Shown here: piece after piece, positions 1-59,865 of the stretch
How the letters are laid out: the number at the start of each line of letters is the position of its first letter
Position numbering within the stretch: the first letter of the stretch is position 1
Assembly (NCBI RefSeq): GCF_000875775.1
Contig: NZ_CP010868.1
Coordinates: forward strand, 1,561,707 to 1,625,706
Length of the DNA: 64,000 nucleotides
DNA from: Nitrosopumilus piranensis
Lineage (GTDB): Archaea > Thermoproteota > Nitrososphaeria > Nitrososphaerales > Nitrosopumilaceae
Direction: 5' to 3'
The notes under the pieces: generated by a model
Told to the model about the DNA's origin: nothing
Seen by the model: the letters and a program-made list of their open reading frames with translations, nothing else
Databases searched by the model: none
Made by a program: the position numbers and the translations under genes

Positions 1-1
1 A

Positions 2-1048
2 AATGTAATATTTGAAGATGAGAAGGAATTAGAAGATTTTACAAGAAAGCTTGCATATGTTTCTGGAAAAAACATTTCAGTTGCTCAACCCATAGTAGAT
101 GCATCACTACCAGATGGAAGCAGAGTTAATCTTACATTTGGACGTGAAATAACAAAAAAAGGTTCCACGTTCACCATTAGAAAGTTTAGATCAGATCCAA
201 TTACAATTATAGATTTGATCAAATTCAATACATTGTCTTCAGATATTGCAGCATACCTTTGGTATTTTGTAGAAAAGAAGTTAACGATGATTGTGGCAGG
301 CGGTACTGCAAGCGGTAAAACAACCACCCTGAACACCTTGGCTTCATTTATCACTCCAGGACAAAAGATAATCAGTATAGAAGATACTCAGGAACTTAAC
401 CTTACACATACAAACTGGGTACCGTCGGTTTCACGAGAAACTTTTTCTGGTACACAAATTGCTGAAATTTCACAATTTGATTTGTTGCGTGCATCGCTCA
501 GGCAGAGACCAGATATAATTATTGTAGGCGAAACAAGAGGTAAGGAGGCCTATACCCTATTTCAGGCCATGGCAACTGGGCACGGGGGTTTTTCATCAAT
601 CCATGCAGACTCTATTCCATCTACAGTTACAAGACTTGTTTCGGAACCCATGAATGTTCCAAAAACGCTCATAGTAAATACGCTTGACGCAATACTATTG
701 CAGCTTAAAATGAAGGTACACGGAAAAACCGTAAGAAGAGTGATACAAGTATCTGAACTTGCAGGACTGGATGAAAAGACTGGCGAAGTTTTGCTAAATG
801 ATGTATTTCGTTGGAATCCATCTACGGATCAACATTCATTTACGGGGCGCAGTGTAGCACTTGAAAAAATAGAAAACGAGTTTGGAGAATCTCAAGAGGA
901 TATAAAATATGAGCTAAATAAGAGAAAGACAACACTAGACTGGATGGTAAAAAATAACATTGTAAGATACAATGAAGTTTCTTCAAACATAATAGAATTT
1001 TACAAGGATCCTGACAAATTTTATGAGCGAAAACGAATCCTGTTGTGA
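2..1048 (+). CDS. Type II/IV secretion system ATPase (TadA/VirB11-like), 5' truncated
   Basis: This is the hexameric motor ATPase that powers pilus assembly at the inner face of the membrane. The reading frame is open from base 2, so the N-terminus lies outside the window. Visible motifs are Walker A GGTASGKTTT, the Asp box around SIEDTQEL, Walker B RPDIIIVGETRG and the His box ATGHGGFSSIHAD. All belong to the GspE/TadA/ArlI family. The next two genes encode T2SSF-type membrane platforms, and pilin-like genes and a prepilin peptidase follow within 15 kb, so a pilus rather than DNA uptake or an archaellum is inferred. ArlF and ArlG are not seen. The gene overlaps the next one by 26 nt if that gene starts at 1023. 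The family is certain; the exact appendage is inferred. Confidence 0.95.
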   Translation, partial: NVIFEDEKELEDFTRKLAYVSGKNISVAQPIVDASLPDGSRVNLTFGREITKKGSTFTIRKFRSDPITIIDLIKFNTLSSDIAAYLWYFVEKKLTMIVAGGTASGKTTTLNTLASFITPGQKIISIEDTQELNLTHTNWVPSVSRETFSGTQIAEISQFDLLRASLRQRPDIIIVGETRGKEAYTLFQAMATGHGGFSSIHADSIPSTVTRLVSEPMNVPKTLIVNTLDAILLQLKMKVHGKTVRRVIQVSELAGLDEKTGEVLLNDVFRWNPSTDQHSFTGRSVALEKIENEFGESQEDIKYELNKRKTTLDWMVKNNIVRYNEVSSNIIEFYKDPDKFYERKRILL

Positions 1049-1994
1049 TCTACATATGGAAAAATCTACACAACCCAAAAAATTGACAAAATCTAAAGTC
1101 ATTGAAAAAAAACATAGAAGTACAATATTCACAATAAGTTATGTTTTGCTCAATGAGGTTATTGGAATTCTTTATACTCGTTTTCCCAACTTGAAAAAAA
1201 CATTGAGACAAACACACATTCCTGTGATGTTTGAAGCCTTTGTTTGCACCATGGTTTTTGTCAGCATTATCGCAACCATTGCAGGAGTAATTACAGGATT
1301 GACTATATCTTATCTGCTTCAAAACAACGAGTTTGTTACATCTTATTCTGCTATTCCTATTGCTCTTGGAGCAGTATTTGGTATTGTAGCTTTTGTGATG
1401 ACATATCAATATCCACAAAATGAGAAGTTGAAACGAAAATCAAAAATTGCCGAAGAAATGGCTTATTTCTCTGGATATATGGGAACCCTTGCTTCTAGCG
1501 GTCTTACGCTTGAAGGCATTTTTAGAACCATAGCAATCGAACAAACTAATGAGGAAATTGTCAAAGACGCACAACATCTTACAAGAGATTTAGAATTACT
1601 TGGCATGGACATTGAAAATGCACTAAAGGATCTTTCAGATAGATCTCCTTTAGATACATACACTGAATTTCTTGAGGGAATAATATCGAATTTAGAAGTA
1701 GGTGGCAATCTTAAAGATTATTTTGTTGCTTCTGGTGAAGTGCAACTAGAACAACGAAAAAACAGGATTAGAGAAGCTAATCAATCATTAGGAATTGTGA
1801 CAGAAATTTACACAATACTGCTTATTGTATTTCCACTTCTTGGTGCAATCATGTTATCCATTATGGGAATGATGTCGGTGAATCTTTATAATTTCAGCAT
1901 AATATCTCTAATGAATATTCTTACCTATGTTTTTGTTCCTGCATTTGGAATCATAATGATACTCATGATTGATTCATTAATACCAAAGAGATGA
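1023..1994 (+). CDS. T2SSF/TadC-like pilus platform membrane protein 1
   Basis: This is a polytopic protein of the type II secretion F / ArlJ / TadB-TadC group, expected to be the membrane anchor on which the ATPase acts. About 323 residues. Hydrophobic segments lie near residues 70-100, 105-130, 250-280 and 290-320. A cytoplasmic helical T2SSF-like region occupies about 140-245 (AEEMAYFSGYMGTLASSG near its start). The start at 1023 overlaps the ATPase by 26 nt. An in-frame ATG at 1056, 8 nt after the ATPase stop, is an equally credible start. The next gene encodes a second protein of the same kind; a TadB+TadC pair is typical of Tad-like pili, whereas archaella have one long ArlJ. Confidence 0.88.
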   Translation: MSENESCCDLHMEKSTQPKKLTKSKVIEKKHRSTIFTISYVLLNEVIGILYTRFPNLKKTLRQTHIPVMFEAFVCTMVFVSIIATIAGVITGLTISYLLQNNEFVTSYSAIPIALGAVFGIVAFVMTYQYPQNEKLKRKSKIAEEMAYFSGYMGTLASSGLTLEGIFRTIAIEQTNEEIVKDAQHLTRDLELLGMDIENALKDLSDRSPLDTYTEFLEGIISNLEVGGNLKDYFVASGEVQLEQRKNRIREANQSLGIVTEIYTILLIVFPLLGAIMLSIMGMMSVNLYNFSIISLMNILTYVFVPAFGIIMILMIDSLIPKR

Positions 1995-1998
1995 TAAA

Positions 1999-2928
1999 TT
2001 GAGTTCACAAAAAATAAATTCTAAAAAACCTGAGTACAACTTACCATTCATCAAGACAACCAAGGGAAAGATAACCATACTTTCTGCCAGCACTGGATTT
2101 GCAATCATGGTTCTTTTCTTCATGATTTCTAACCAAACACAAGAGATTCTGTATGCAAATGTAGGAGTTGTCTTGGGATTACTAACTGGACTACTTCCAT
2201 ATACCGTCTTGGAGGTAAAAGAGAATTCTGTAAAAAATAAGATTGATGAAAACATTCCATTATTTCTTTTATCATTGGTAAGTGCTGTGGAAAGTGGCTC
2301 TAGTCTTTTGTTAGCAATTGAAGAGGCAGCCAACAGAAATTATGGTCCGTTAACACCCCACTTGAAAAACTTTAGAGCTAATATAAGTTGGGGAACCCCA
2401 CTTGATAAGGCATTTGAAAACTTTTCAAAAAGAATAGGAACTAAGCTTGCTGCACGTGTATCGATTTTACTTGAGACATCCATTAACATGGGTGGTGATG
2501 TAATAGAAACGCTAGGTATGATACAACATCATGTTACAAACCTGCAAAATCTTGAAAAAGAAAGGATCAGCACGCTAAAACCATACATCATAACCATATA
2601 CATGTCATTTGTCACATTTCTTGGATTAACAATTATGTTGATTGTTAGTTTCTTTTCTGAACTGGAAATAGTACAAGAACAGCTAATTTCAGAGAGCACA
2701 AAAGGAACTGCACTGCCCTTGGGAATTTTTGAATCCATGATGGGCCTTGAGGTTGAGGTGATCAAATCAATTCTATTCCATATGGCGATCATTGAAGCCG
2801 TTTTAGGAGGGATTGTAGGTGGTAAAATTTCCGGAGGCACATATGCATCTGGAGTAAAACATGCAATCATCATGGTGATTTTGACAGTTATTGCTTTTTC
2901 AGTTCTGCGCGTAGCAGAAATAATCTAA
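1999..2928 (+). CDS. T2SSF/TadB-like pilus platform membrane protein 2
   Basis: This is the second T2SSF-type membrane protein, 309 residues, beginning with TTG 4 nt after the preceding stop. No in-frame ATG occurs until well into the first membrane helix, which supports the TTG start. Membrane helices are near residues 28-48, 52-72, 195-220, 255-275 and 288-308. The cytoplasmic helical bundle (about 85-190) includes LLSLVSAVESGSSLLLAIEEA, the usual start of the T2SSF domain. It probably pairs with the neighbouring platform protein to form the assembly platform. Its tight coupling to the ATPase indicates one operon. Confidence 0.88.
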   Translation: MSSQKINSKKPEYNLPFIKTTKGKITILSASTGFAIMVLFFMISNQTQEILYANVGVVLGLLTGLLPYTVLEVKENSVKNKIDENIPLFLLSLVSAVESGSSLLLAIEEAANRNYGPLTPHLKNFRANISWGTPLDKAFENFSKRIGTKLAARVSILLETSINMGGDVIETLGMIQHHVTNLQNLEKERISTLKPYIITIYMSFVTFLGLTIMLIVSFFSELEIVQEQLISESTKGTALPLGIFESMMGLEVEVIKSILFHMAIIEAVLGGIVGGKISGGTYASGVKHAIIMVILTVIAFSVLRVAEII

Positions 2929-2998: not shown

Positions 2999-3021
2999 TT
3001 TTGTATCAGGTGACCGAAGAT

Positions 3022-4080
3022 ATGGAACAGAATGTTATATCAATTGAGGATCAAAAAAATTTGCAAGGTGGTTTAAAATTGACTGATATAGAGGACAATG
3101 AGAGGAACGTTTCAGAGGATTTTGAAATATCAGTAGGTCAAAAATTAATAGAATATCTCAAATCCACCAACACAACAATCATTTTGCCACAAATTAACTT
3201 TGAAGAAAATCGTATAATATTTCCAATCCTTAAGGAAATAGGTGAAGACCCATCAAATATTTCCGTTTTAGATAAACTTACGACTCCTGCAGTTAGTATT
3301 CTTCAAAAAGAGACATATGAAGTACTTCCTGTTTGTCCAGAACATCCAGAGAACCTCTTAACTACAACACGAATTTGTTGTTCTGAATGTAGTTCTATCA
3401 ATGTAAAAAAACTGTATCTTGTCGAACACAAAGTTTGCGGTTTTATTGCAGATACTGAAATCTTTGGTCAAAAAACCATAAAAGAAATAGTAGCATGTCC
3501 AAAATGTGAAAAAAACATTACTAATCCAAAAAGAGAATTGAGATCATTAGGGTCTTGGTTTTTGTGTAGTGACTGCGGAGAAAAGTTTGATAACATATCT
3601 AACAAGTTATTTTGTCGAAAATTCAATCATGATTTTGACATAAATTCTGCAGAGTATCTTAGTGTGCCATATTATTCAGTGAATAATTCATCATCGGCAG
3701 ATGTTGATACGATTACGCTACTTACTAAACTTAGTAAAGCCATAGAATCTTTTGGATTTTCCAGTCAAAAATTTGTAAAAGTAATTGGACGAAGTGGAGT
3801 ACCTCACTCTGTAAGTATTCACGGCAAAAAAGAAGACAAACAAGTATCTGTTTTCTTCCGCTCCTCAGATAAACAATTACCAGATGTGGATGTAAATTCA
3901 ATTATTGCAGAATGTGCTGACTTGCCAGAATCATTCAATATTTTAATTTGTATTCCAAGTATATCTAGTGAAGCAAAAGCTATGGCAAGATATACAGGCA
4001 CATCGATAATTACTGGCAAAGAATATGACGAAGTTTTCTCTCAACTAGAAAAACTAGTAGATGAACATATCAATAAATAA
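3022..4080 (+). CDS. Zinc-ribbon protein with TackOD1-like domain
   Basis: A cytoplasmic protein of about 352 residues with no membrane segment. It has three Cys/His clusters in the middle third (HPENLLTTTRICCSECSS; VCGF...ACPKCEKN; FLCSDCGEKF). The spacing resembles TackOD1, a thaumarchaeal zinc-binding output domain found in signalling proteins. The C-terminal third (about 235-350) looks like a separate alpha/beta domain, perhaps a restriction-endonuclease or Rossmann-like fold; this is uncertain. ATG 3022 is preferred because AGGTGA lies 8 nt before it; an upstream in-frame TTG at 3001 would add 7 residues. Its place between the platform and pilin genes suggests a regulator or accessory of pilus assembly. 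Confidence 0.7.
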   Translation: MEQNVISIEDQKNLQGGLKLTDIEDNERNVSEDFEISVGQKLIEYLKSTNTTIILPQINFEENRIIFPILKEIGEDPSNISVLDKLTTPAVSILQKETYEVLPVCPEHPENLLTTTRICCSECSSINVKKLYLVEHKVCGFIADTEIFGQKTIKEIVACPKCEKNITNPKRELRSLGSWFLCSDCGEKFDNISNKLFCRKFNHDFDINSAEYLSVPYYSVNNSSSADVDTITLLTKLSKAIESFGFSSQKFVKVIGRSGVPHSVSIHGKKEDKQVSVFFRSSDKQLPDVDVNSIIAECADLPESFNILICIPSISSEAKAMARYTGTSIITGKEYDEVFSQLEKLVDEHINK

Positions 4081-4102: not shown

Positions 4103-4597
4103 TTGGCAAATACAATGACAAGGAGAGGTATCAGCGAAGTAATCACCAGTATGTTTATGCTAGCCATTGTAGTTGGTGTGGGTTCAGTAATTTTGTTTAG
4201 TGGTTATTCAAACATAATGGATTTTACTACAATGGTTTCATTTTTTGTGTCAGACATAGAAGAAACCCATCTTGAAAACTTGACACTTGAGCATATCCGA
4301 TATTATCCTCTAGGAAATAATGTTACGTTATGGTTAAGAAACACAGGCGATTCTCAAGTTACAATTGATTCCATTGCAATTGTAAAAATTGATACGCAAG
4401 ATCTTATTTTAGATGATGATGACATGAGTCAGGTCATATTTATTGGAGATATTATCTCAGTTGAAAAGGCTACACCACTCACACAAGGTACAGGTCAATT
4501 CAATGATGATTATTACAAAAATAGCAAGTATCGAATCACCATAACTACATCAAAAGGAAATGTGTTTGAAACTATCGCAAAACCATTTAATACTTAG
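4103..4597 (+). CDS. Type IV pilin-like protein (minor pilin candidate A)
   Basis: A small surface protein of about 164 residues with a class III signal peptide. A short charged N-terminus (TRRG) is followed by ISEVITSMFMLAIVVGVGSV, a hydrophobic helix used for both membrane insertion and filament packing. Prepilin peptidase would cut after the RRG. The remainder is a beta-rich domain (LWLRNTGDSQVTIDSIAIV), as in archaeal pilins. The start is TTG 4103 or ATG 4115, both ahead of the cleavage site. It is probably a minor pilin because the more pilin-like abundant candidates are at 11.3 and 12.5 kb. Confidence 0.82.
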   Translation: MANTMTRRGISEVITSMFMLAIVVGVGSVILFSGYSNIMDFTTMVSFFVSDIEETHLENLTLEHIRYYPLGNNVTLWLRNTGDSQVTIDSIAIVKIDTQDLILDDDDMSQVIFIGDIISVEKATPLTQGTGQFNDDYYKNSKYRITITTSKGNVFETIAKPFNT

Positions 4598-4674: not shown

Positions 4675-5343
4675 ATGTCATGCAAAAAAAGAGGGGTTTC
4701 TGAAATCATAGCAACTCTCATGTTAATGTCTATTTCACTTATAGGTACAGTTTTGGTGCTTAGTTTTTTCCAAAATGCAGATATTGCAAACATTGTGGGG
4801 TCTTCTGAAGTGGAGTCTTCTTTAAAGTCCATACAACTTGTCGGTTATGATACAAGAGATTCACTAGGTCTATCCGGAATATCTTCGTTAAGTAACATTC
4901 TTGATGCCAAAGGTCTTTGTACTACTTCATGTAGTTCCAATCCAGACTTGATACCGATAAATTCTGGAACAGAGTTTGTTGTACTTGATTTAAGAAATAA
5001 TGGTGGGGAATCTATTTTTCTTTCATCATTAGTGATTAATGATATCAAACACACTTTTGACAGTGCGACATCAGGAGCTGTTTTGGATGCATCAGTTAAT
5101 GCAGCTACATGCACATTATCTTGCCCATATCCAAAGGCAGGTAAATTTAGCATTGTTCCCATTTCAGATAACACCCAAAAGTCTACAAATGAGATAGTTG
5201 TAGGACAGGAAGTCAGACTAGTAATTAAACTGAGTTCAGATATCAGCTCAGACATAAAATTAACAAAGCCACTTGTAGTCCAAATTGATACCAACAGACT
5301 TGATCAAGAAGTGTTTATAGTACCTACAGGGGGGGCTAGCTAA
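4675..5343 (+). CDS. Type IV pilin-like protein (minor pilin candidate B)
   Basis: A pilin-like protein of about 222 residues from ATG 4675. The frame is open further upstream to TTG 4615, but ATG 4675 places the basic KKRG cleavage motif immediately at the N-terminus, as expected. After KKRG comes VSEIIATLMLMSISLIGTVL. The C-terminal domain is beta-rich and contains four cysteines in two short pairs (LCTTSCSS and ATCTLSCP), which could form extracytoplasmic disulfides; cysteines are rare in archaeal pilins. The stop codon TAA abuts the ATG of the next gene, indicating translational coupling. Confidence 0.8.
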   Translation: MSCKKRGVSEIIATLMLMSISLIGTVLVLSFFQNADIANIVGSSEVESSLKSIQLVGYDTRDSLGLSGISSLSNILDAKGLCTTSCSSNPDLIPINSGTEFVVLDLRNNGGESIFLSSLVINDIKHTFDSATSGAVLDASVNAATCTLSCPYPKAGKFSIVPISDNTQKSTNEIVVGQEVRLVIKLSSDISSDIKLTKPLVVQIDTNRLDQEVFIVPTGGAS

Positions 5344-7530
5344 ATGAAGATATGTTTTCGTAAACGGCGCAGTATATCTACTGTAGTTGGCACGTTTTTT
5401 TTCCTTATATTGTTAATTGCGGCATTTTCAGCACTATTTGCAGCTTTCTCGCTGCAGAAAAATCTAGTGGATACTCATCAAGATGTTGCACAATTAACTC
5501 TTCAAAAAATACAAGATGATTTTGATATTGATTTCTGCATAGATGATTTTGACAATCGCCTACATCTAGATGTTACAAATACAGGTGCATCCCCACTTGA
5601 ATTCAGGTCCATATGGATTGTAAATCAATCAGACACAAACTTTCCTGTAACTTTTTACGAAATTGATTACAAGGATATGCACGCGCCTATAGGTGGAACC
5701 ATTGACATTTTAGATAACAACAAACTTTTGTTTGCACAGAATTCATATGATCTTAAAATTGTAACCAGTACTGGCAAAATAAAATCATTCTCTCAAAAAG
5801 TTGGACCTATAATTGAACCAGGAACATTCAAAGGAATATTTGCGAGTGCAGGAGGACTTACAAATCCACAAGGAATTGTATTTGGACCAGACGGAGGCCT
5901 ATATGTGGCAAGTAAAAATACGGATAACGTATTGCGATATGATACAATTACGGGGGACTTTGATATTGACATATTCGAGGGATTTATCAGTGGGGATCTT
6001 GACAAACCCTCAGCCATTGTAAAAGATTTGACGGGGAATTTTTACATTGCTGGAGAAAATTCTGATGCCATCAGAAAATTTGACATAGCAGGTGATCTTG
6101 TAGGGGATTTTGTTGCAGCAGGTAGTGGTGGATTAGATTCTCCAGTTGATATGGTAATAGGTACTGATGGTAATCTATATGTGGCAAGTAGGCTCACAGA
6201 TGAAATTTTGCGCTACAACGGTATAACTGGAACATTTTTGAGTGCTTTTGTTACCTCCCAAAGTGGCGGACTAACAAATCCTTCAGGTATTGCATTTGGT
6301 CCAGATGGCAACCTCTATGTTGCAAGTGACAACAAAGATGCTATATATCGTTACAACGGCATAACTGGTGCGTTTATAGATATTTTTGTAACTGGGGGTA
6401 GTGGGGGATTGAATAAACCCAGGGGAATCACATTTGGTCCAGACAGTAATCTCTATGTTACTTCTGAAATAACAGACTCTGTATTGCGTTACAATGGTGT
6501 AACTGGTGCATTCATCAATACTTTTGTAACTGACAGTAGTGGGGGATTGAACAGCCCCAGCGATTTAGCGTTTGGTCCAGACAGTAACCTCTATGTTACT
6601 TCTGAAATAACAGACTCTGTATTGCGTTACAATGGCATAACTGGTGCGTTTATAGATATTTTTGTAACTGGGGGTAGTGGGGGATTGGATAATCCACATG
6701 GATTATTATTTTCATCAGGAAATCTATATGTTGCCAGTCTAAATACTGATGAGGTCATTCAATATGATAGCACCACTGGTCTGCTCGATTTTGTATTTAT
6801 GAAAGCAGGTCTTGGACTGAATGTTCCAAGCGATGTGACATTTAGTTCTGCAGGAGACATGTACGTAGTTGGTGAAACATCAGAGAATGTTCTCAAGTAT
6901 ACTGGTGGAGAAGTAGCTCTTTCCCCGGCAGCATTTATCAGTGTTTTTGTCAGTACAGACTCTGGTTCTATGAATGATCCTCATTCTATCACATTTGGAC
7001 CAGATGGAAATCTCTACCTATCTAGCAGACTTACAGATCAAGTTCTCCGCTACAACGGTGTAACTGGTGCGTTTATGGGTATTTTTGTAACGGATGGTAG
7101 CGGCGGACTGAACAACCCTACGGGTTTAACATTTGGTCCCGATGATAATCTCTATGTAGCAGGAGAAATCAATGATGCCATATTTAGATACAACGGTTCT
7201 ACTGGGGCGTTCATAGACGTGTTTGTAACCAGTGGCAGTGGTTCACTGGATAATCCACAAGGAATTGTATTTGGTCCAGACAATAATCTCTATGTAGCAA
7301 GCCATAATACAGATAGTATAATGAGATACAACGGTTCTACTGGGGCGTTTATGGAAGAGTTTGTTACTCCAGGTGCAGGGGGATTGAACAACCCAATAGA
7401 TGTGGCATTTGGCCCCAACGGGCGTTTGTTTGTATCAAATGAGGCTCCAAATAATATTTTACGATTTCAAGGACCTGGAGATTCAGCAGGCGGGTCAGAT
7501 AATGATTTCAACTGTAAATGGGAGCCATAA
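5344..7530 (+). CDS. Pilin-like N-terminus fused to NHL/YncE-type beta-propeller
   Basis: A 728-residue protein. The first 45 residues look like a class III pilin signal (KRRSISTVVGTFFFLILLIA), and residues about 50-155 resemble the beta domain of small pilins. From about 160 to 720 there are roughly twelve repeats of 40-50 residues with the pattern GL-NP-GI-FGPDG-NLYVAS...D-I-RYNG-TGAF, typical of NHL or streptogramin-lyase-like beta-propellers. This suggests a tip adhesin or ligand-binding minor pilin displayed outside the cell. It starts directly after the stop of the preceding pilin-like gene. Some repeats are nearly identical at the DNA level (about 6450-6530 against 6580-6660), implying recent repeat expansion. 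The biochemical role of the propeller is unknown. Confidence 0.85.
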   Translation: MKICFRKRRSISTVVGTFFFLILLIAAFSALFAAFSLQKNLVDTHQDVAQLTLQKIQDDFDIDFCIDDFDNRLHLDVTNTGASPLEFRSIWIVNQSDTNFPVTFYEIDYKDMHAPIGGTIDILDNNKLLFAQNSYDLKIVTSTGKIKSFSQKVGPIIEPGTFKGIFASAGGLTNPQGIVFGPDGGLYVASKNTDNVLRYDTITGDFDIDIFEGFISGDLDKPSAIVKDLTGNFYIAGENSDAIRKFDIAGDLVGDFVAAGSGGLDSPVDMVIGTDGNLYVASRLTDEILRYNGITGTFLSAFVTSQSGGLTNPSGIAFGPDGNLYVASDNKDAIYRYNGITGAFIDIFVTGGSGGLNKPRGITFGPDSNLYVTSEITDSVLRYNGVTGAFINTFVTDSSGGLNSPSDLAFGPDSNLYVTSEITDSVLRYNGITGAFIDIFVTGGSGGLDNPHGLLFSSGNLYVASLNTDEVIQYDSTTGLLDFVFMKAGLGLNVPSDVTFSSAGDMYVVGETSENVLKYTGGEVALSPAAFISVFVSTDSGSMNDPHSITFGPDGNLYLSSRLTDQVLRYNGVTGAFMGIFVTDGSGGLNNPTGLTFGPDDNLYVAGEINDAIFRYNGSTGAFIDVFVTSGSGSLDNPQGIVFGPDNNLYVASHNTDSIMRYNGSTGAFMEEFVTPGAGGLNNPIDVAFGPNGRLFVSNEAPNNILRFQGPGDSAGGSDNDFNCKWEP

Positions 7531-7665
7531 ATCAAATATTTTGAGCCATCATTACACTCAACAGGTATGTTTTATTTGGCACCAATGCCAACTTAGTCAA
7601 AAATTATTTACCGATCATTGTTTATAACCTTCTTTGGTTCTATTGATCCTTAAAGGTGAATGAAA

Positions 7666-8457
7666 ATGGCATCAGTGTTTGGTTCTGAAGGACGAAAAGA
7701 AGAATATACCCAAGAGTTTGCAGTAGAGCAAAAGCAGACAATACAAACAGGAATTGCGGGATTTGATGATGCATTAGGACAGGGACTTCCTGTAGGAAAC
7801 CTATATCTTGTTTCAGGTCAATTGGGAAGTAGTGCAAGTTTATTTGTACAACAGATTCTTTACAATAATATTATTTCAAAACAAAAGGTTGCCTACTATA
7901 CATCTACGGTTCCTAGTCAGGACATAATTCAGGACATGAAGTTTAGCAATATGGACATACAAAAATTTGTCGATGATGGAACTTGGGTATTTGGACGTGC
8001 TGTACCTTCAGACAAAGTAGAGATAGTAAACGCTATGCCAGAAAACCCACTAGAGCAAAAAATCGATCTAGGCGATACTCTTGCAAATTTGATGAATCAC
8101 CTAAATGAAACTATTTCTGATGGACGAAACACTGTAATTCACTTAGGAGATTTGATCAGATCATATCCCATCTCAGAGATACAAAATACTATCCTTTACA
8201 TTGAAAGCTTTGCAAGAAAATATGGAGGTGTTCATTTTATTATACTAACAGAAGATGTACATGAAAAAGTTGACATCATGGGAATCAAAGATTCAGCAGA
8301 CTCTGTCTTTGAATTTACAGCAAACATAAGGGAAGAAACAATTGAGAACATACTTACAATACAAAAAGTACGAGACATGGCTCCAAGAAAGAGAATAATT
8401 CGACTTTCACAAAGAAAGAGTGGCTTGTCAACTGAGACGATAAGAAGAATTTCTTAA
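7666..8457 (+). CDS. KaiC/ArlH-like RecA-fold protein with degenerate P-loop
   Basis: A soluble protein of 263 residues matching the KaiC/ArlH family: GIAGFDDALGQGLPVGNLYL leads into the P-loop position. There, however, the sequence reads GQLGSSASLF in place of G-x4-GK[ST]. Walker A lacks lysine, so ATP hydrolysis is unlikely. ArlH, the archaellum relative, is a regulatory nucleotide sensor bound to the motor; this protein may be a structural or regulatory counterpart for the pilus motor. ATG 7666 is preferred because AGGTGA ends 6 nt before it, whereas ATG 7660 has almost no spacing. It lies about 130 nt after the propeller gene on the same strand. Confidence 0.75.
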   Translation: MASVFGSEGRKEEYTQEFAVEQKQTIQTGIAGFDDALGQGLPVGNLYLVSGQLGSSASLFVQQILYNNIISKQKVAYYTSTVPSQDIIQDMKFSNMDIQKFVDDGTWVFGRAVPSDKVEIVNAMPENPLEQKIDLGDTLANLMNHLNETISDGRNTVIHLGDLIRSYPISEIQNTILYIESFARKYGGVHFIILTEDVHEKVDIMGIKDSADSVFEFTANIREETIENILTIQKVRDMAPRKRIIRLSQRKSGLSTETIRRIS

Positions 8458-11319: not shown

Positions 11320-11880
11320 ATGAATCACACTACATCTCGTAGGGCAGTAGCACCGGTTATAGCGACAATACTTTTAGTAGCAATCGCAGTAGTCGGCGGC
11401 ACACTAGTCTTTACATTCTCTTCAGGTGTCTTTAATGAACAGCAACTAAACACTCCAGCTGCAATAGAATCATTAATCATTACTGGATACGATGCCAGAG
11501 ATACTGCAGCTAGATTAGCTCACAATGGAACATCTGTATCAGGTGTAACTGGAGTAGCAACACCAGGTGCAGGTCTTCTTGCAGCTAATGATGAAGTTTG
11601 GATTTTTGTTCAAAATGCAGGAACAAATCCAATTGACATTGTTACAGTAACCTTTGCAGGAACCACATATCCATTTAGTGCCACAGCCGCATCATCAACA
11701 TACAATATTGCAGACAATTCAGGACTAACATCTGATCAAGTATTGGAAGCTGGTGAAGAAGCCACCATAATTGTGGATTTGGCAAACCCAATCAAAATTG
11801 GCAGAAGCGGCCTAGTGCAGATAAGTACTGGCAGTGGAGAATTCTCAGAAAAAATCCAGATTGGCAGACAGCTTGGTTAA
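11320..11880 (+). CDS. Type IV pilin (major pilin candidate, copy 1)
   Basis: A 186-residue archaeal pilin with a textbook class III signal: SRRAVAPVIATILLVAIAVV, a short basic leader then a hydrophobic helix. Cleavage is expected near the RRA. The beta-rich body carries conserved pilin phrases such as WIFVQNAGTNPIDIVTV and ends with IKIGRSGLVQISTGSGEFSE. The gene and its promoter are duplicated 1,144 bp downstream. The first 67 or so codons are identical in DNA in both copies while parts of the C-terminal region differ, so the assembly surface is kept and the exposed surface varies. A strong TATA box and monocistronic layout suggest high expression. Confidence 0.9.
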   Translation: MNHTTSRRAVAPVIATILLVAIAVVGGTLVFTFSSGVFNEQQLNTPAAIESLIITGYDARDTAARLAHNGTSVSGVTGVATPGAGLLAANDEVWIFVQNAGTNPIDIVTVTFAGTTYPFSATAASSTYNIADNSGLTSDQVLEAGEEATIIVDLANPIKIGRSGLVQISTGSGEFSEKIQIGRQLG

Positions 11881-12463: not shown

Positions 12464-13027
12464 ATGAATCACACTACATCTCGTAGGGCAGTAGCACCGG
12501 TTATAGCGACAATACTTTTAGTAGCAATCGCAGTAGTCGGCGGCACACTAGTCTTTACATTCTCTTCAGGTGTCTTTAATGAACAGCAACTAAACACTCC
12601 AGCTGCAATAGAATCATTAATCATTACTGGATACGATGCCAGAGATACTGCAGCTAGATTATTTCATAATGGAACATCTATGTCAAGTTTTTCTGGAATA
12701 ACACCTGGTGCAGGTCTTCTTGCAGTTAATGACATAGTTAATGTACATGTTCAAAATGCAGGAACAAATCCAATTGACATTGTTACAGTAACCTTTGCAG
12801 GAACCGAATATACTTTTAGTGGATCCGCAAAAGCTGATAGTGGCGAATATAGCATTGCAGACAATACAGGATATGCCAGTGATCAAGTCTTAGAAGCTGG
12901 TGAAGAAGCTACCGTGATATTTAATATGACGGATCAAATCAAAATCGGTAGAAACGGTCTAATGCAGATAAGTACTGGCAACGGAGAAGTCTCAGAAAAA
13001 ATTCAGATTGGCAGAGAGCTTGGTTAA
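12464..13027 (+). CDS. Type IV pilin (major pilin candidate, copy 2)
   Basis: A 187-residue paralogue of the pilin at 11320. The signal and N-terminal helix are identical (SRRAVAPVIATILLVAIAVV). Differences cluster after residue 66: FHNGTSMSSF for AHNGTSVSGV, an altered EYTFSGSAKADSGEY loop, and several substitutions near the C-terminus. The TGNGEVSEKIQIG ending matches its sister closely. A filament could be built from either or both. The 3' flank is also duplicated but carries an expanded 14-bp repeat. Confidence 0.9.
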   Translation: MNHTTSRRAVAPVIATILLVAIAVVGGTLVFTFSSGVFNEQQLNTPAAIESLIITGYDARDTAARLFHNGTSMSSFSGITPGAGLLAVNDIVNVHVQNAGTNPIDIVTVTFAGTEYTFSGSAKADSGEYSIADNTGYASDQVLEAGEEATVIFNMTDQIKIGRNGLMQISTGNGEVSEKIQIGRELG

Positions 13028-14418: not shown

Positions 14419-15111
14419 TTAAATCCATGAACCAAAACTGTTTAGGATTATGTCGCCCAAAAATATCTGAGCAATGAATCCAATTGTTATGAAGACAATA
14501 AATGGAATGCCAGTAGATACCCATGTATCTTTCTTGGTGCAATACTCTGTCTTTTCTGCGTGATGAAGTGAAAAGCTAAACATTTTTGCTCCCATGTGTT
14601 CATCCTCTATTGAAAAACTAAATTTTGGATTTTTTGCCCTATGACCAAAAAGCATAGCTAGGATCTTTCTGCTTTTTGTTTCATTAAAACCATCAAAAAT
14701 GTTATGATTCCTTGATAATGCAATTAGGTTTCTTGCTAGGTTTACTACAAAGATGCTTGAGCTAAATAATGCAGCATTTGATAGAACTGTGAAGGGAGTT
14801 ACTATGTTGTCTGAAAAAATGGAAAAAGGAACTAGTGTTTGCAATACTGCTATTCCAATAAAATCAGCACCTCCCAAAAATCCTATCCTCCACATGGCAA
14901 ACAATATTGGAACTACGATTAGGGATATACCCACAGCAACCAGATTATTTAGCGGATCATCAATGAACACAAAAACTACAGCAGCAATACCAAAAGGAAT
15001 CCAAAAAATATCGTGAATCTCTCGTTTCCATAAATCCAACGTTGATGCCAAAACTAGCATAACTAGCGCAACTAAAATCCTGACAATCTCAATTTCAATC
15101 GAGGAATACAT
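14419..15111 (-). CDS. Prepilin peptidase, A24 family (archaeal PibD/FlaK type)
   Basis: A 230-residue polytopic membrane aspartic protease that cleaves class III signal peptides of pilins on the cytoplasmic side. The two expected catalytic aspartates are visible: Asp26 in LDLWKREI and Asp83 in GGAD, a form of the GxGD motif. About six hydrophobic segments are present, with a longer hydrophilic loop near 130-185 than in minimal PibD. It presumably processes the five pilin-like proteins of this island, and its presence supports calling the island a pilus locus. Confidence 0.88.
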   Translation of the reverse strand: MYSSIEIEIVRILVALVMLVLASTLDLWKREIHDIFWIPFGIAAVVFVFIDDPLNNLVAVGISLIVVPILFAMWRIGFLGGADFIGIAVLQTLVPFSIFSDNIVTPFTVLSNAALFSSSIFVVNLARNLIALSRNHNIFDGFNETKSRKILAMLFGHRAKNPKFSFSIEDEHMGAKMFSFSLHHAEKTEYCTKKDTWVSTGIPFIVFITIGFIAQIFLGDIILNSFGSWI

Positions 15112-54403: not shown

Positions 54404-55900
54404 ATGTATTCTGTGATTTTAACAGAATTGGGAATCTCAGTTTTTGATGATGAAAAACTAGAAAAATCATTTCCATTTTCAAATCCTGTTAAGGAATATC
54501 TACTAGTAAAAAACAAGGAATCAAAACTAAATGAACTCATAAACTATTTAGCTTCAATTCAAAGAGGAGTGTCAGTAAGTGATGATGCATTACTTGCAAT
54601 TTTGAAAAAAAATAACATAGATTCTCAAATAATGGAGGATTCAGAATTAGAGAGAATTCAAGCATCAAAACCACAGATTATTGTGGATTCAGGTTTTGCA
54701 TCTAATCCACAAGACGCACTAGGAAAACTAAGAGAGTTTGCTTTAGGATTATCATCTTCAAAAGTTACAGAAGTATCTGAGAGTCCAGATCTTCACATCA
54801 TTCAAGCAATTAATTCATTAGATGAAATCGATAAAATTGCAAATGCTCTAAGTTCTAGATTAAGAGAATGGTATGGATTACATTTTCCTGAGCTAGATAA
54901 TGTGATTGATAGTATTAACGGATATGCACAAATTGTTATGGCAGGAAAACGTGAATCATTAACAAAACAAGTTTTTGAAGATGCAGGATTTCCAGAATCA
55001 AAAGTTGAGATGTTGTCTTTAATTTCTACAAAAAGTAGGGGAGGAGACATATCAGATGTTAATCTTGCAATCGTTCAATCAATTGCAAAACAAATTTTAG
55101 ATTTTCATGATCTACGTAAAAAACTAGAAGAACATGTTGAATCTGAAATGCAAACGATTGCACCAAATCTTTCTGCAATACTTGGTACTGCAGTAGGTGC
55201 CAGAATTTTAGGAAGAGCAGGCAGTCTTAAGAGATTAGCATCACTTCCAGCAAGTACAATTCAAGTTCTTGGAGCTGAAAAAGCATTGTTTAGATCATTG
55301 AAGACAGGTTCCCAACCACCAAAACATGGATTACTATTCCAACATGCAATGGTTCATGCTGCACCTAGATGGCAAAGAGGAAAAATTGCACGTGCAATTG
55401 CGGCAAAAGCAGTCATTGCTGCAAGAGTTGACGTCTATGGTGACGGGTTAAACAAAACATTACTTGAAAAACTCAATGTAAGAGTGGATGAAATTGGCAA
55501 AAAATATGAAAATCCAACAGAAAAAGACATCAGAAGACCAGAATCATTTAGACGAGATGGAGGTAACTTTAGAGATAATTCCAGACGTAGAGATGACAGA
55601 GGTGGACGTAGAGATGACAGAGGTGGACGTAGAGATGACAGAGGTGGACGTAGAGATGACAGAGGTGGACGTAGAGATGACAGAGGTGGACGTAGAGATG
55701 ACAGAGGTGGACGTAGAGATGACAGAGGTGGACGTAGAGATGACAGAGGTGGACGTAGAGATGACAGAGGTGGACGTAGAGATGACAGAGGTGGACGTAG
55801 AGATGATAGAGGTGGACGTAGAGATGACAGAGGTGGACGTAGAGATGACAGACCAAGTTCAAATAAAAACAAAAAGAGAAAACAGTTTGGAAGAAGATAA
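54404..55900 (+). CDS. nop5: Nop5/Nop56-58 C/D RNP core protein with RGG-array tail
   Basis: A 498-residue protein. The core (1-390) is the archaeal Nop5 scaffold joining fibrillarin and L7Ae on C/D box guide RNAs: LREWYGLHFPELDNVIDSIN is the coiled-coil entry, ILGTAVGARILGRAGSLKRL the RNA-binding Nop domain signature and HAAPRWQRGKIARAIAAKAV the C-terminal helix. From about 394 to 484 there is an array of thirteen RRDD units, twelve of them RRDDRGG, then PSSNKNKKRKQFGRR. Most archaeal Nop5 tails are short and lysine-rich. RGG boxes bind RNA and drive condensation in eukaryotic nucleolar proteins. The stop overlaps the fibrillarin gene start. Confidence 0.95.
   Translation: MYSVILTELGISVFDDEKLEKSFPFSNPVKEYLLVKNKESKLNELINYLASIQRGVSVSDDALLAILKKNNIDSQIMEDSELERIQASKPQIIVDSGFASNPQDALGKLREFALGLSSSKVTEVSESPDLHIIQAINSLDEIDKIANALSSRLREWYGLHFPELDNVIDSINGYAQIVMAGKRESLTKQVFEDAGFPESKVEMLSLISTKSRGGDISDVNLAIVQSIAKQILDFHDLRKKLEEHVESEMQTIAPNLSAILGTAVGARILGRAGSLKRLASLPASTIQVLGAEKALFRSLKTGSQPPKHGLLFQHAMVHAAPRWQRGKIARAIAAKAVIAARVDVYGDGLNKTLLEKLNVRVDEIGKKYENPTEKDIRRPESFRRDGGNFRDNSRRRDDRGGRRDDRGGRRDDRGGRRDDRGGRRDDRGGRRDDRGGRRDDRGGRRDDRGGRRDDRGGRRDDRGGRRDDRGGRRDDRGGRRDDRPSSNKNKKRKQFGRR
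55586..55852 (+). repeat. 21-bp tandem repeat within nop5 (about 12.7 copies)
   Basis: The unit CGTAGAGATGACAGAGGTGGA recurs every 21 bp without gaps, encoding RRDDRGG. The copies are identical except for a silent GAC-to-GAT near 55806. As the unit length is a multiple of three, other frames and the reverse strand are open too, giving spurious long frames. Near-perfect identity shows recent expansion by slippage or recombination. Confidence 0.95.
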
Positions 55901-56561
55901 TCCAGCATTTTTCTGGATAAAATCTGAAGGCCAGCAAAAATTAGCTACTGAAAATTTAGTTCCAGGTAATCAAGTATACAAAGAAAAACTAATTGTCAAA
56001 AAGGGAATAGAATACAGACTATGGGATCCATTTAGAAGTAAACTAGCAGCTGCAATAATGAATGAATTAGAAAACTTTCCTTTTGAAAACAAAACCAAAG
56101 TGTTGTATTTAGGAGCATCAACTGGAACCACTGTAAGTCATATTTCAGATATTGTTGGACCAAGTGGAATTGTATTTGCAGTAGAACATGCAAGTAGAGT
56201 TGCAAGGGATTTTTTAGATAGAGTTGCAGCATATAGAAAAAATATTATGCCAATTTTACAAGATGCACGAAGACCAAAAGAATATTTTTCAGTATTTGGC
56301 AAAGTGGACGTAGTTTATGTGGATATTGCACAACCTGATCAGACAGAAATTGCAATAGATAACTGTGAAATGTTCCTAAAGAAAGGCGGTTATTTCTTTT
56401 TGGTAATTAAAACAAGAAGTATTGACGTAACAAAATCACCAAAAAAAATCATAGAAGAAGAAACTCAAAAATTACAACCAAAATTTGAAGTATTACAATC
56501 AATTGATCTGCATCCATATGATAAAGACCATGCAATAGTTATTGCAAAATCTAGAGGTTAA
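55887..56561 (+). CDS. flpA: Fibrillarin-like rRNA/tRNA 2'-O-methyltransferase
   Basis: A 224-residue catalytic subunit of the C/D RNP. KTKVLYLGASTGTTVSHISD is the SAM motif, GIVFAVEHASRVARDFLDRV and VDVVYVDIAQPDQTEIAIDN hold catalytic and Nop5-contact residues, and FFLVIKTRSIDVTKSP carries the catalytic lysine. The frame is open far upstream through the nop5 repeats, but the sensible start is TTG 55887, which overlaps the end of nop5 by 14 nt and yields EEDNPAFFWIKSEG near the N-terminus. Coupling with nop5 ensures balanced subunits. Confidence 0.93.
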   Translation: MEEDNPAFFWIKSEGQQKLATENLVPGNQVYKEKLIVKKGIEYRLWDPFRSKLAAAIMNELENFPFENKTKVLYLGASTGTTVSHISDIVGPSGIVFAVEHASRVARDFLDRVAAYRKNIMPILQDARRPKEYFSVFGKVDVVYVDIAQPDQTEIAIDNCEMFLKKGGYFFLVIKTRSIDVTKSPKKIIEEETQKLQPKFEVLQSIDLHPYDKDHAIVIAKSRG

Positions 56562-58390: not shown

Positions 58391-58966
58391 ACATACATAG
58401 TATAACTCACTACTTTGTTTTCTACTTGCCTTCGGTTTTGTAAGGTTGATGCGTGCAAATTTTTTCTTTATGTAATCTCTAAATTCCATAGAATATTCCC
58501 CATCAAAAACTTTGAAAACAGCATTGCCTTTATGTGCCAATACTTTATCCATAATTTTTGTGCAATCATAATTCAAAGATATTTGCTTGGCATGATCCAC
58601 TGACCAATTTCCACTCACTTTTGGAGAAAGATCACAAATTACAGCGTTAACTTTACGTCCAAAATAAGACATTATCTCATCAACCATATTCTCATCTTCA
58701 ATATCACCTCTAAGAATATGAGCACCAGGAATTTCTTCAACATATGACAAATCAATACCCATGACTTTACCCTGATTTCCTGCTAATTTGACAGCCATTT
58801 GTGTCCAACCACCAGGAGCACAACCAAGATCAAGAACATAGAATCCAGGACCAATAAGCCGGTAAGATTGATTTAGTTCTTTGAGTTTGTATGCAGCTCT
58901 ACTTCGAAAACCTTGCTCATGTGCTAATTTTCGATAGTGATCTTTTCTAGCATCTAATAACTTCAT
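58373..58966 (-). CDS. rlmE: 23S rRNA uridine 2'-O-methyltransferase RlmE (FtsJ)
   Basis: A 197-residue methyltransferase. SRAAYKLKELNQSYRLIGPG provides the first catalytic lysine, VLDLGCAPGGWTQMAVKLAG the SAM site, VNAVICDLSPKVSGNWSVDH the catalytic Asp, and GNAVFKVFDGEY the second Lys. The K-D-K-E tetrad is complete. Its ATG overlaps the stop of the upstream TFE-beta-like gene by 4 nt. Confidence 0.94.
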   Translation of the reverse strand: MKLLDARKDHYRKLAHEQGFRSRAAYKLKELNQSYRLIGPGFYVLDLGCAPGGWTQMAVKLAGNQGKVMGIDLSYVEEIPGAHILRGDIEDENMVDEIMSYFGRKVNAVICDLSPKVSGNWSVDHAKQISLNYDCTKIMDKVLAHKGNAVFKVFDGEYSMEFRDYIKKKFARINLTKPKASRKQSSELYYVCLGFTG

Positions 58967-59814
58967 TTGGCCTTCGCAGGTTTTTTCATTTCAGCAATTA
59001 CCCAATCTTCAATGAACTGACAATTTCTAGGACTGATTTCACCTTCAAGAGAACATTTCTGCTCAACGGGACAAACCAAACAGGGAGCATTTTCAATAGA
59101 TTGAGTACTAATTGGTGTCTTTTTTAGAATTAATTTGTAAGTCCATCGATTTTTTTCAAGAATCTTTTCTCTAGTAATTGTACCCATTCTTTCAAGTTTT
59201 AATGCTAAACGAGAGCCATCACGACTTGTAAGTTTAAGCTTCTTCCACAATTCACTTTGAAACATCCCTTCTGATTCACGTTCAGCTAAAATATCACAAA
59301 CTTTGTTTGTGAGTCTTTCCATGTCAACTTTTTCAATTTGGAAATTTTCAATTTCTTCATCAGATAATTGTTCTTCTAGTTCTTCTTCAAGTGTTTTTTC
59401 AGCTTCTTTTTTTGCTTCTTCAATTTCTTTTTTAGTTAATTTTTTTTCTTTTGGAGGTTTTGCATCGGCTTTCTTTGTCTTTGCAGGTTTTGCATCGGCT
59501 TTCTTTGTCTTTGCAGGTTTTGCATCGGCTTTCTTTGTCTTTGCAGGTTTTGCATCGGCTTTCTTTGTCTTTGCAGGTTTTGCATCGGCTTTCTTTGTCT
59601 TTGCAGGTTTTGCATCGGCTTTCTTTGTCTTTGCAGGTTTTGCATCGGCTTTCTTTGTCTTTGCAGGTTTTGCATCGGCTTTCTTTGTCTTTGCAGGTTT
59701 TGATTTAGTCTTTTTTAAAGTAGAATCTAGAACATCTTTTTTCTTTTTAAGAGCATCAATCTCAGCTTTGATTTTCTTTGCTTCATCAACTAGTTCATCT
59801 TTTTTCTTTGCCAT
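58963..59814 (-). CDS. TFE-beta (RPC39/RPC34-like) transcription factor with Lys/Ala repeat linker
   Basis: A 283-residue protein from ATG 59814, with AAGGTGA about 5 nt upstream. Residues 1-38 are a charged coiled coil. Residues about 39-118 are eight identical KPAKTKKADA repeats. About 165-235 is a winged helix (FQSELWKKLKLTSRDGSRLA; RMGTITREKILEKNRWTYKL). The C-terminal CLVCPVEQKCSLEGEISPRNC pattern matches the [4Fe-4S] ligands of human RPC39 and archaeal TFE-beta. TFE-beta partners TFE-alpha to open promoters. The repeat linker is unusual: standard TFE-beta consists of little more than the winged helix and the cluster. Confidence 0.82.
   Translation of the reverse strand: MAKKKDELVDEAKKIKAEIDALKKKKDVLDSTLKKTKSKPAKTKKADAKPAKTKKADAKPAKTKKADAKPAKTKKADAKPAKTKKADAKPAKTKKADAKPAKTKKADAKPAKTKKADAKPPKEKKLTKKEIEEAKKEAEKTLEEELEEQLSDEEIENFQIEKVDMERLTNKVCDILAERESEGMFQSELWKKLKLTSRDGSRLALKLERMGTITREKILEKNRWTYKLILKKTPISTQSIENAPCLVCPVEQKCSLEGEISPRNCQFIEDWVIAEMKKPAKAK
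59456..59695 (-). repeat. 30-bp tandem repeat, eight perfect copies, in the TFE-beta-like gene
   Basis: Eight contiguous 30-bp units with no mismatch encode KPAKTKKADA on the minus strand. Exact identity, including at third codon positions, indicates very recent expansion or ongoing homogenisation. The antisense frame (plus strand) is also open but is an artefact of the repeat. Confidence 0.97.
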
Positions 59815-59865
59815 CAAATCACCTTATTTTTTAAATTTAATTTCATATTTTCCATAAAGTCATTC

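Follow-up and report, generated by a model that had tools for sequence, protein, structure and literature searches.

A type IV pilin with an NHL-repeat, probably double-propeller head in Nitrosopumilus piranensis

The window, the whole stretch of 64,000 nucleotides analysed here, opens with a pilus operon in the order ATPase, two TadB/TadC-like proteins, TackOD1, pilA, pilB and large pilin. Further pilin genes and a prepilin peptidase gene lie downstream. The features are as follows.

1..1048, plus strand: pilus assembly ATPase (T2SSE; Pfam), beginning about 529 bases before the window
1023..1994, plus strand: TadB-like pilus membrane protein (T2SSF; Pfam)
1999..2928, plus strand: TadC-like pilus membrane protein (T2SSF; Pfam)
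3001..4080, plus strand: TackOD1-domain protein, a conserved neighbour (Pfam; relatives' loci)
4115..4597, plus strand: pilA, the operon's first small pilin (likely start 4115; class III motif RRGIS; conserved neighbour)
4675..5343, plus strand: pilB, the operon's second small pilin (likely start 4675; class III motif KRGVS; conserved neighbour)
5344..7530, plus strand: large modular pilin with a probable NHL double-propeller head, 728 aa (ORF, Pfam, repeat HMM)
5344..5373, plus strand: class III leader, residues 1-10, predicted cleavage between S10 and I11 (literature rule, PMC4371748)
5371..5799, plus strand: pilin domain, N-terminal helix (10-55) and beta domain (60-152) (AlphaFold2; profile match to 8fk7; alignment)
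5827..6651, plus strand: NHL repeats 1-6, residues 162-436, predicted six-bladed propeller 1 (repeat period, structure model, Foldseek)
6652..7491, plus strand: NHL repeats 7-12, residues 437-716, inferred six-bladed propeller 2 (51% identical to repeats 1-6)
11320..11880, plus strand: pilin, inferred candidate major pilin (weak Arch_flagellin/Pilin_N matches in Pfam)
12464..13027, plus strand: tandem copy of the candidate major pilin (sequence comparison)
14419..15111, minus strand: prepilin peptidase (Peptidase_A24, Arc_PepC_II)

Genes for an assembly ATPase, TadC and prepilin peptidase were all present. The genome itself contained one match to the pilin part of the large pilin and one pilus ATPase, and the operon appears to be the only type IV pilus detected in this genome. 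The two tandem pilin genes (11320-11880 and 12464-13027), both candidate major pilins, are identical in their first ~60 residues. The large pilin is followed after 129 bases by a KaiC-like ATPase gene (7660-8457), which is absent at that place in the relatives' loci. Farther along the window, the end of ORF 54404-55900 comprises a long run of near-identical RRDDRGG repeats (55435-55908), of which the open frames on both strands are a by-product. A minus-strand ORF at 58963-59817 has tandem KTKKADAKPA-type repeats.

The large pilin is encoded by an intact plus-strand ORF of 728 aa (5344-7530), in which no frameshift was found. Its ATG at 5344 abuts the pilB stop (gap 0), and its own stop ends at 7530. 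The initial annotation had described a class III signal, a pilin-like domain and roughly twelve propeller repeats in one frame; the coordinates proved exact and the frame single. The protein begins with MKICFRKRRS, followed by ISTVVGTFFFLILLIAAF, giving the motif KRRS/ISTVVG (the slash marks the predicted cleavage). The class III rule places G, A or S at -1, with a charged residue at -2 in archaea (PMC4371748). Here, R9 is at -2, S10 at -1 and I11 at +1, with a hydrophobic stretch after them, so the proposed signal agrees with the rule.

AlphaFold2 modelled a helix at residues 10-55, as a structural check of the pilin helix had called for, and strands at residues 60-152, with pLDDT in this block mostly 70-90. 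The full-length model (pTM 0.36) was of low quality outside the pilin part and could not be used to judge the propellers. The Pfam scan gave no Pilin_N match in the large pilin. A profile of relatives of the pilin part (A1, an alignment of 14 sequences) matched PDB 8fk7 over profile positions 8-146 (E = 3.3e-4), and Foldseek with the pilin model matched 8fk7 and archaellum filaments. The structure 8fk7 is the archaeal type IV pilus of Pyrobaculum calidifontis (PMC12954529). The protein thus has the long N-terminal helix and beta pilin domain of an archaeal type IV pilin, and the supposed pilin-like domain turned out, from the 8fk7 profile and the structure matches, to be a complete archaeal pilin domain (residues ~10-152). 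Because the modelled helix and strands, the 8fk7 profile match and the Foldseek matches agree, we take the N-terminal part to be a true pilin domain, more than a hydrophobic membrane anchor.

The head contains twelve NHL repeats (residues 162-716). An HMM built from the repeats placed twelve between residues 165 and 714, which turns the earlier approximate count into an exact one. In Pfam, the head matched NHL (76.8 bits, cut-off 20), Vgb_lyase (90.5 bits, cut-off 50) and the other propeller models SBBP, Lactonase and SGL; several models exceeded their own cut-offs. Chance or low complexity was rejected as the source of the repeat signal, as these scores are far beyond chance. Repeats resembled each other most at a lag of six (permutation p = 0.015), and an alignment of repeats 1-6 with repeats 7-12 gave 51% identity. 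Modelled alone, with an alignment of the protein's own two repeat halves as input, repeats 1-6 formed a closed six-bladed propeller (pLDDT 83.9, pTM 0.86). Foldseek grouped this model with the NHL domains of TRIM71 and TRIM2 and with the designed Pizza6. An NHL score above the cut-off, a closed six-bladed model and NHL structure matches together mark an NHL-repeat propeller. Because of the six-repeat period and the confident closed model, the head is most likely composed of two tandem six-bladed propellers, the second predicted from its likeness to repeats 1-6. Thus, of the blade count proposed for structure prediction, the six blades of propeller 1 came from the model and those of propeller 2 from likeness. 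One 12-bladed propeller, or 7+5 blades, seemed less likely in view of the lag of six and of repeats 1-6 closing alone.

The head is acidic (pI 4.05; 58 kDa) and has no cysteine, no tryptophan, three histidines and no ExH. Its GC is higher (0.41 vs 0.34) but its GC3 is ordinary (0.28). Residue composition is therefore a likelier cause of the raised GC than recent foreign DNA.

The order pilA-pilB-large pilin was common to 17 compared loci from eight Nitrosopumilaceae genera, preceded by TackOD1 in all except L050. In the relatives, the ATPase and TadB/TadC genes adjoin the locus on the opposite strand, whereas the window operon runs all in one direction. The usual large pilin in this slot has 570-615 aa, with variants from 333 aa (L050) to ~650 aa (L048, L091). 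It shares the pilin domain (33-40% identical), the gene order and the slot with the window protein but differs in its head, which lacks the propeller signature. Among the relatives' heads scanned with Pfam, there were no propeller matches and only weak matches of other kinds, some of them Ig-like.

With the pilin part as query, matches were found in 24 of the 95 genomes of the genus and in 115 of the 400 sampled genomes of the order. Among 141 pilin-positive ORFs in the loci retrieved, some of them the same gene counted more than once, NHL repeats and a pilin domain were combined only in copies of the window gene. When the whole protein was searched against 200 family and 398 phylum genomes, the window ORF alone matched both parts among the matches listed; weaker instances may fall outside these lists. 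Similarly, no propeller-bearing pilin was among the matches listed in the family, order and phylum searches. A whole-protein search of genome contigs found no relative. The pilin profile picked up 24 loci, in which no pilin ORF contained NHL repeats. Among viral contigs, three propeller matches turned up, all of them weak. In G020, G021, G060 and G077, the ATPase occurred without a large-pilin match, on contigs that are short or end there; their ORFs were screened in bulk only. The suggested search for the pilin-NHL architecture in other archaea thus found it absent elsewhere in the genomes searched. The pilin part is one member of a conserved family whose operon slot is fixed; what stands out from the sequence comparison is therefore that a large pilin already in place seems to have had its head swapped.

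In a second pilus system of the family, the large pilins (L046:9429-12089 and L049:7253-9700) carry a Laminin_G_3 lectin-like domain. These LamG-headed proteins likewise join a related pilin part to a recognised domain as head, but the head is lectin-like and the ATPase is a different one (~40% identical).

The nearest repeats, up to 62% identical among the matches listed, were found in the Nitrosopumilaceae proteins L110, L108 and L109, which are secreted or membrane-anchored NHL proteins but lack a pilin domain. L110 has a signal-peptide-like N-terminus, and the inspected close repeat relatives are, by their N-termini, secreted or membrane-anchored surface proteins. Since no second transmembrane segment was found in the large pilin and these relatives have signal-peptide-like or membrane-anchor N-termini, the propeller head should be extracellular. 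L108 (452-6331) and L109 (2099-8005) are giant proteins of ~1960 aa, with many extracellular-type NHL repeats and then transmembrane segments. The last domain of L108 is a family 2 glycosyltransferase (Pfam), which makes the protein a propeller fused to a probable polysaccharide synthase. The genome's other NHL protein (G000:C1:1430594-1431085; L115:2647-4224), of ~525 aa, has NHL and RTX-type calcium-binding repeats.

The window ATPase was 60% identical to the ATPases of its own genus, compared with 88% within the genus, and the 348-aa query was at most 70% identical to any ATPase in 250 family genomes. Because the ATPase is so unusually divergent, the operon would come from an unsampled lineage or have evolved fast. 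Trees of the window operon and of the pilin did not resolve their placement. With the operon so divergent from its genus, the head swap may have taken place in a different lineage, or that lineage may have had the propeller form first.

According to PMC8179133, which has a supplementary list of 264 modular architectures, such pilins are widespread in bacteria. The large pilin has the combination by which that source recognises them, i.e. a pilin module plus an extra domain not specific to pili. The bacterial set was defined there by the N-terminal IPR012902 motif (PMC8179133); the large pilin had no such Pfam match and carries an archaeal signal in its place. The closest functional parallel that we found was PilA/PilB/PilC of Streptococcus sanguinis, likewise three minor pilins. 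PilB (vWA) and PilC (lectin) likewise consist of a small pilin module and a bulky C-terminal functional module, and PMC8179133 and PMC9934059 propose them as tip adhesins. The window pilin differs from them in its archaeal pilin and machinery, its propeller module and a ligand that is only predicted. PilC/PilY1 of bacterial type IVa pili, likewise a beta-propeller protein with minor pilins at the pilus tip (PMC8179133), is a looser parallel, being itself no pilin. Neisseria_PilC (IPR008707) was absent among the large pilin's Pfam matches up to E = 0.1.

The initial annotation knew of no archaeal pilin with such a head. Similarly, in the literature searched, of partial coverage, we found no archaeal case of NHL or another beta-propeller with a pilin, and the main text of a census of archaeal type IV pili mentions no propellers (PMC4858521). 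The principle of modular pilins and PilY1 are already known. What appears to be new is this combination, absent from the other genomes searched.

We consider it reasonably probable that the large pilin is a modular minor pilin with a swapped, ligand-binding double-propeller head, probably located at the pilus tip. In the mechanism that we infer, which covers processing, pilus incorporation, tip position and ligand as well as the direction and time of the swap, the prepilin peptidase (14419-15111) would remove the ten-residue leader, and the helix and pilin domain would let the protein join the pilus. PilA, PilB and the large pilin would form a minor-pilin complex, probably a tip or initiation complex, which the motor would extend on a shaft of the tandem pilins 11320 and 12464. 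The two acidic six-bladed NHL propellers would be displayed outside as a binding head. Its ligand would most likely be a glycan or a surface protein; the glycan is a guess, prompted by the relative that is linked to a glycosyltransferase and by the LamG heads in the second pilus system. A propeller unit akin to the secreted NHL surface proteins would have replaced the usual head of the slot's large pilin.

It is conceivable, but unlikely, that the protein stays outside the pilus and that its class III helix only anchors the propellers at the membrane, as in archaeal binding proteins with class III signals. Non-pilus proteins, e.g. bindosome subunits, also use such signals (PMC4371748). However, the helix here leads into a complete pilin beta domain, and the gene occupies the conserved slot beside pilA, pilB and the assembly genes. 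Even within the filament, many copies might decorate the shaft instead of one standing at the tip, and PMC8179133 leaves room for modular pilins on the shaft if the linker is flexible. We regard such decoration as rather improbable, because pilins 11320 and 12464 resemble major subunits, the gene is grouped with two other apparent minor pilins, and a 58-kDa head is bulky.

Repeat propellers match many lyase- and lactonase-type models. The Vgb_lyase score of 90.5 bits, over its cut-off, and the Lactonase and SGL matches would fit a displayed lyase or lactonase. However, the best Vgb_lyase stretch spans only positions 12-169 of the 290 in the profile, the propeller has six blades, and the head has three histidines and no ExH. 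An enzymatic head seems very improbable for these reasons, and a binding head on a minor pilin is the reading that we prefer.

We found little literature on the pili of ammonia-oxidizing archaea. The head could be made alone, which would give a direct handle for ligand tests. Tentatively, the large pilins of this slot could serve archaea in general as a platform on which tip heads are exchanged. The protein described here could be a one-chain equivalent of the minor pilin-PilY1 tip of bacteria, its adhesive head being the two propellers. If the slot is fixed while the head changes, from a non-propeller beta head in most to propellers here and a LamG lectin in the related system, the idea of modular pilins would extend from bacteria to archaea.
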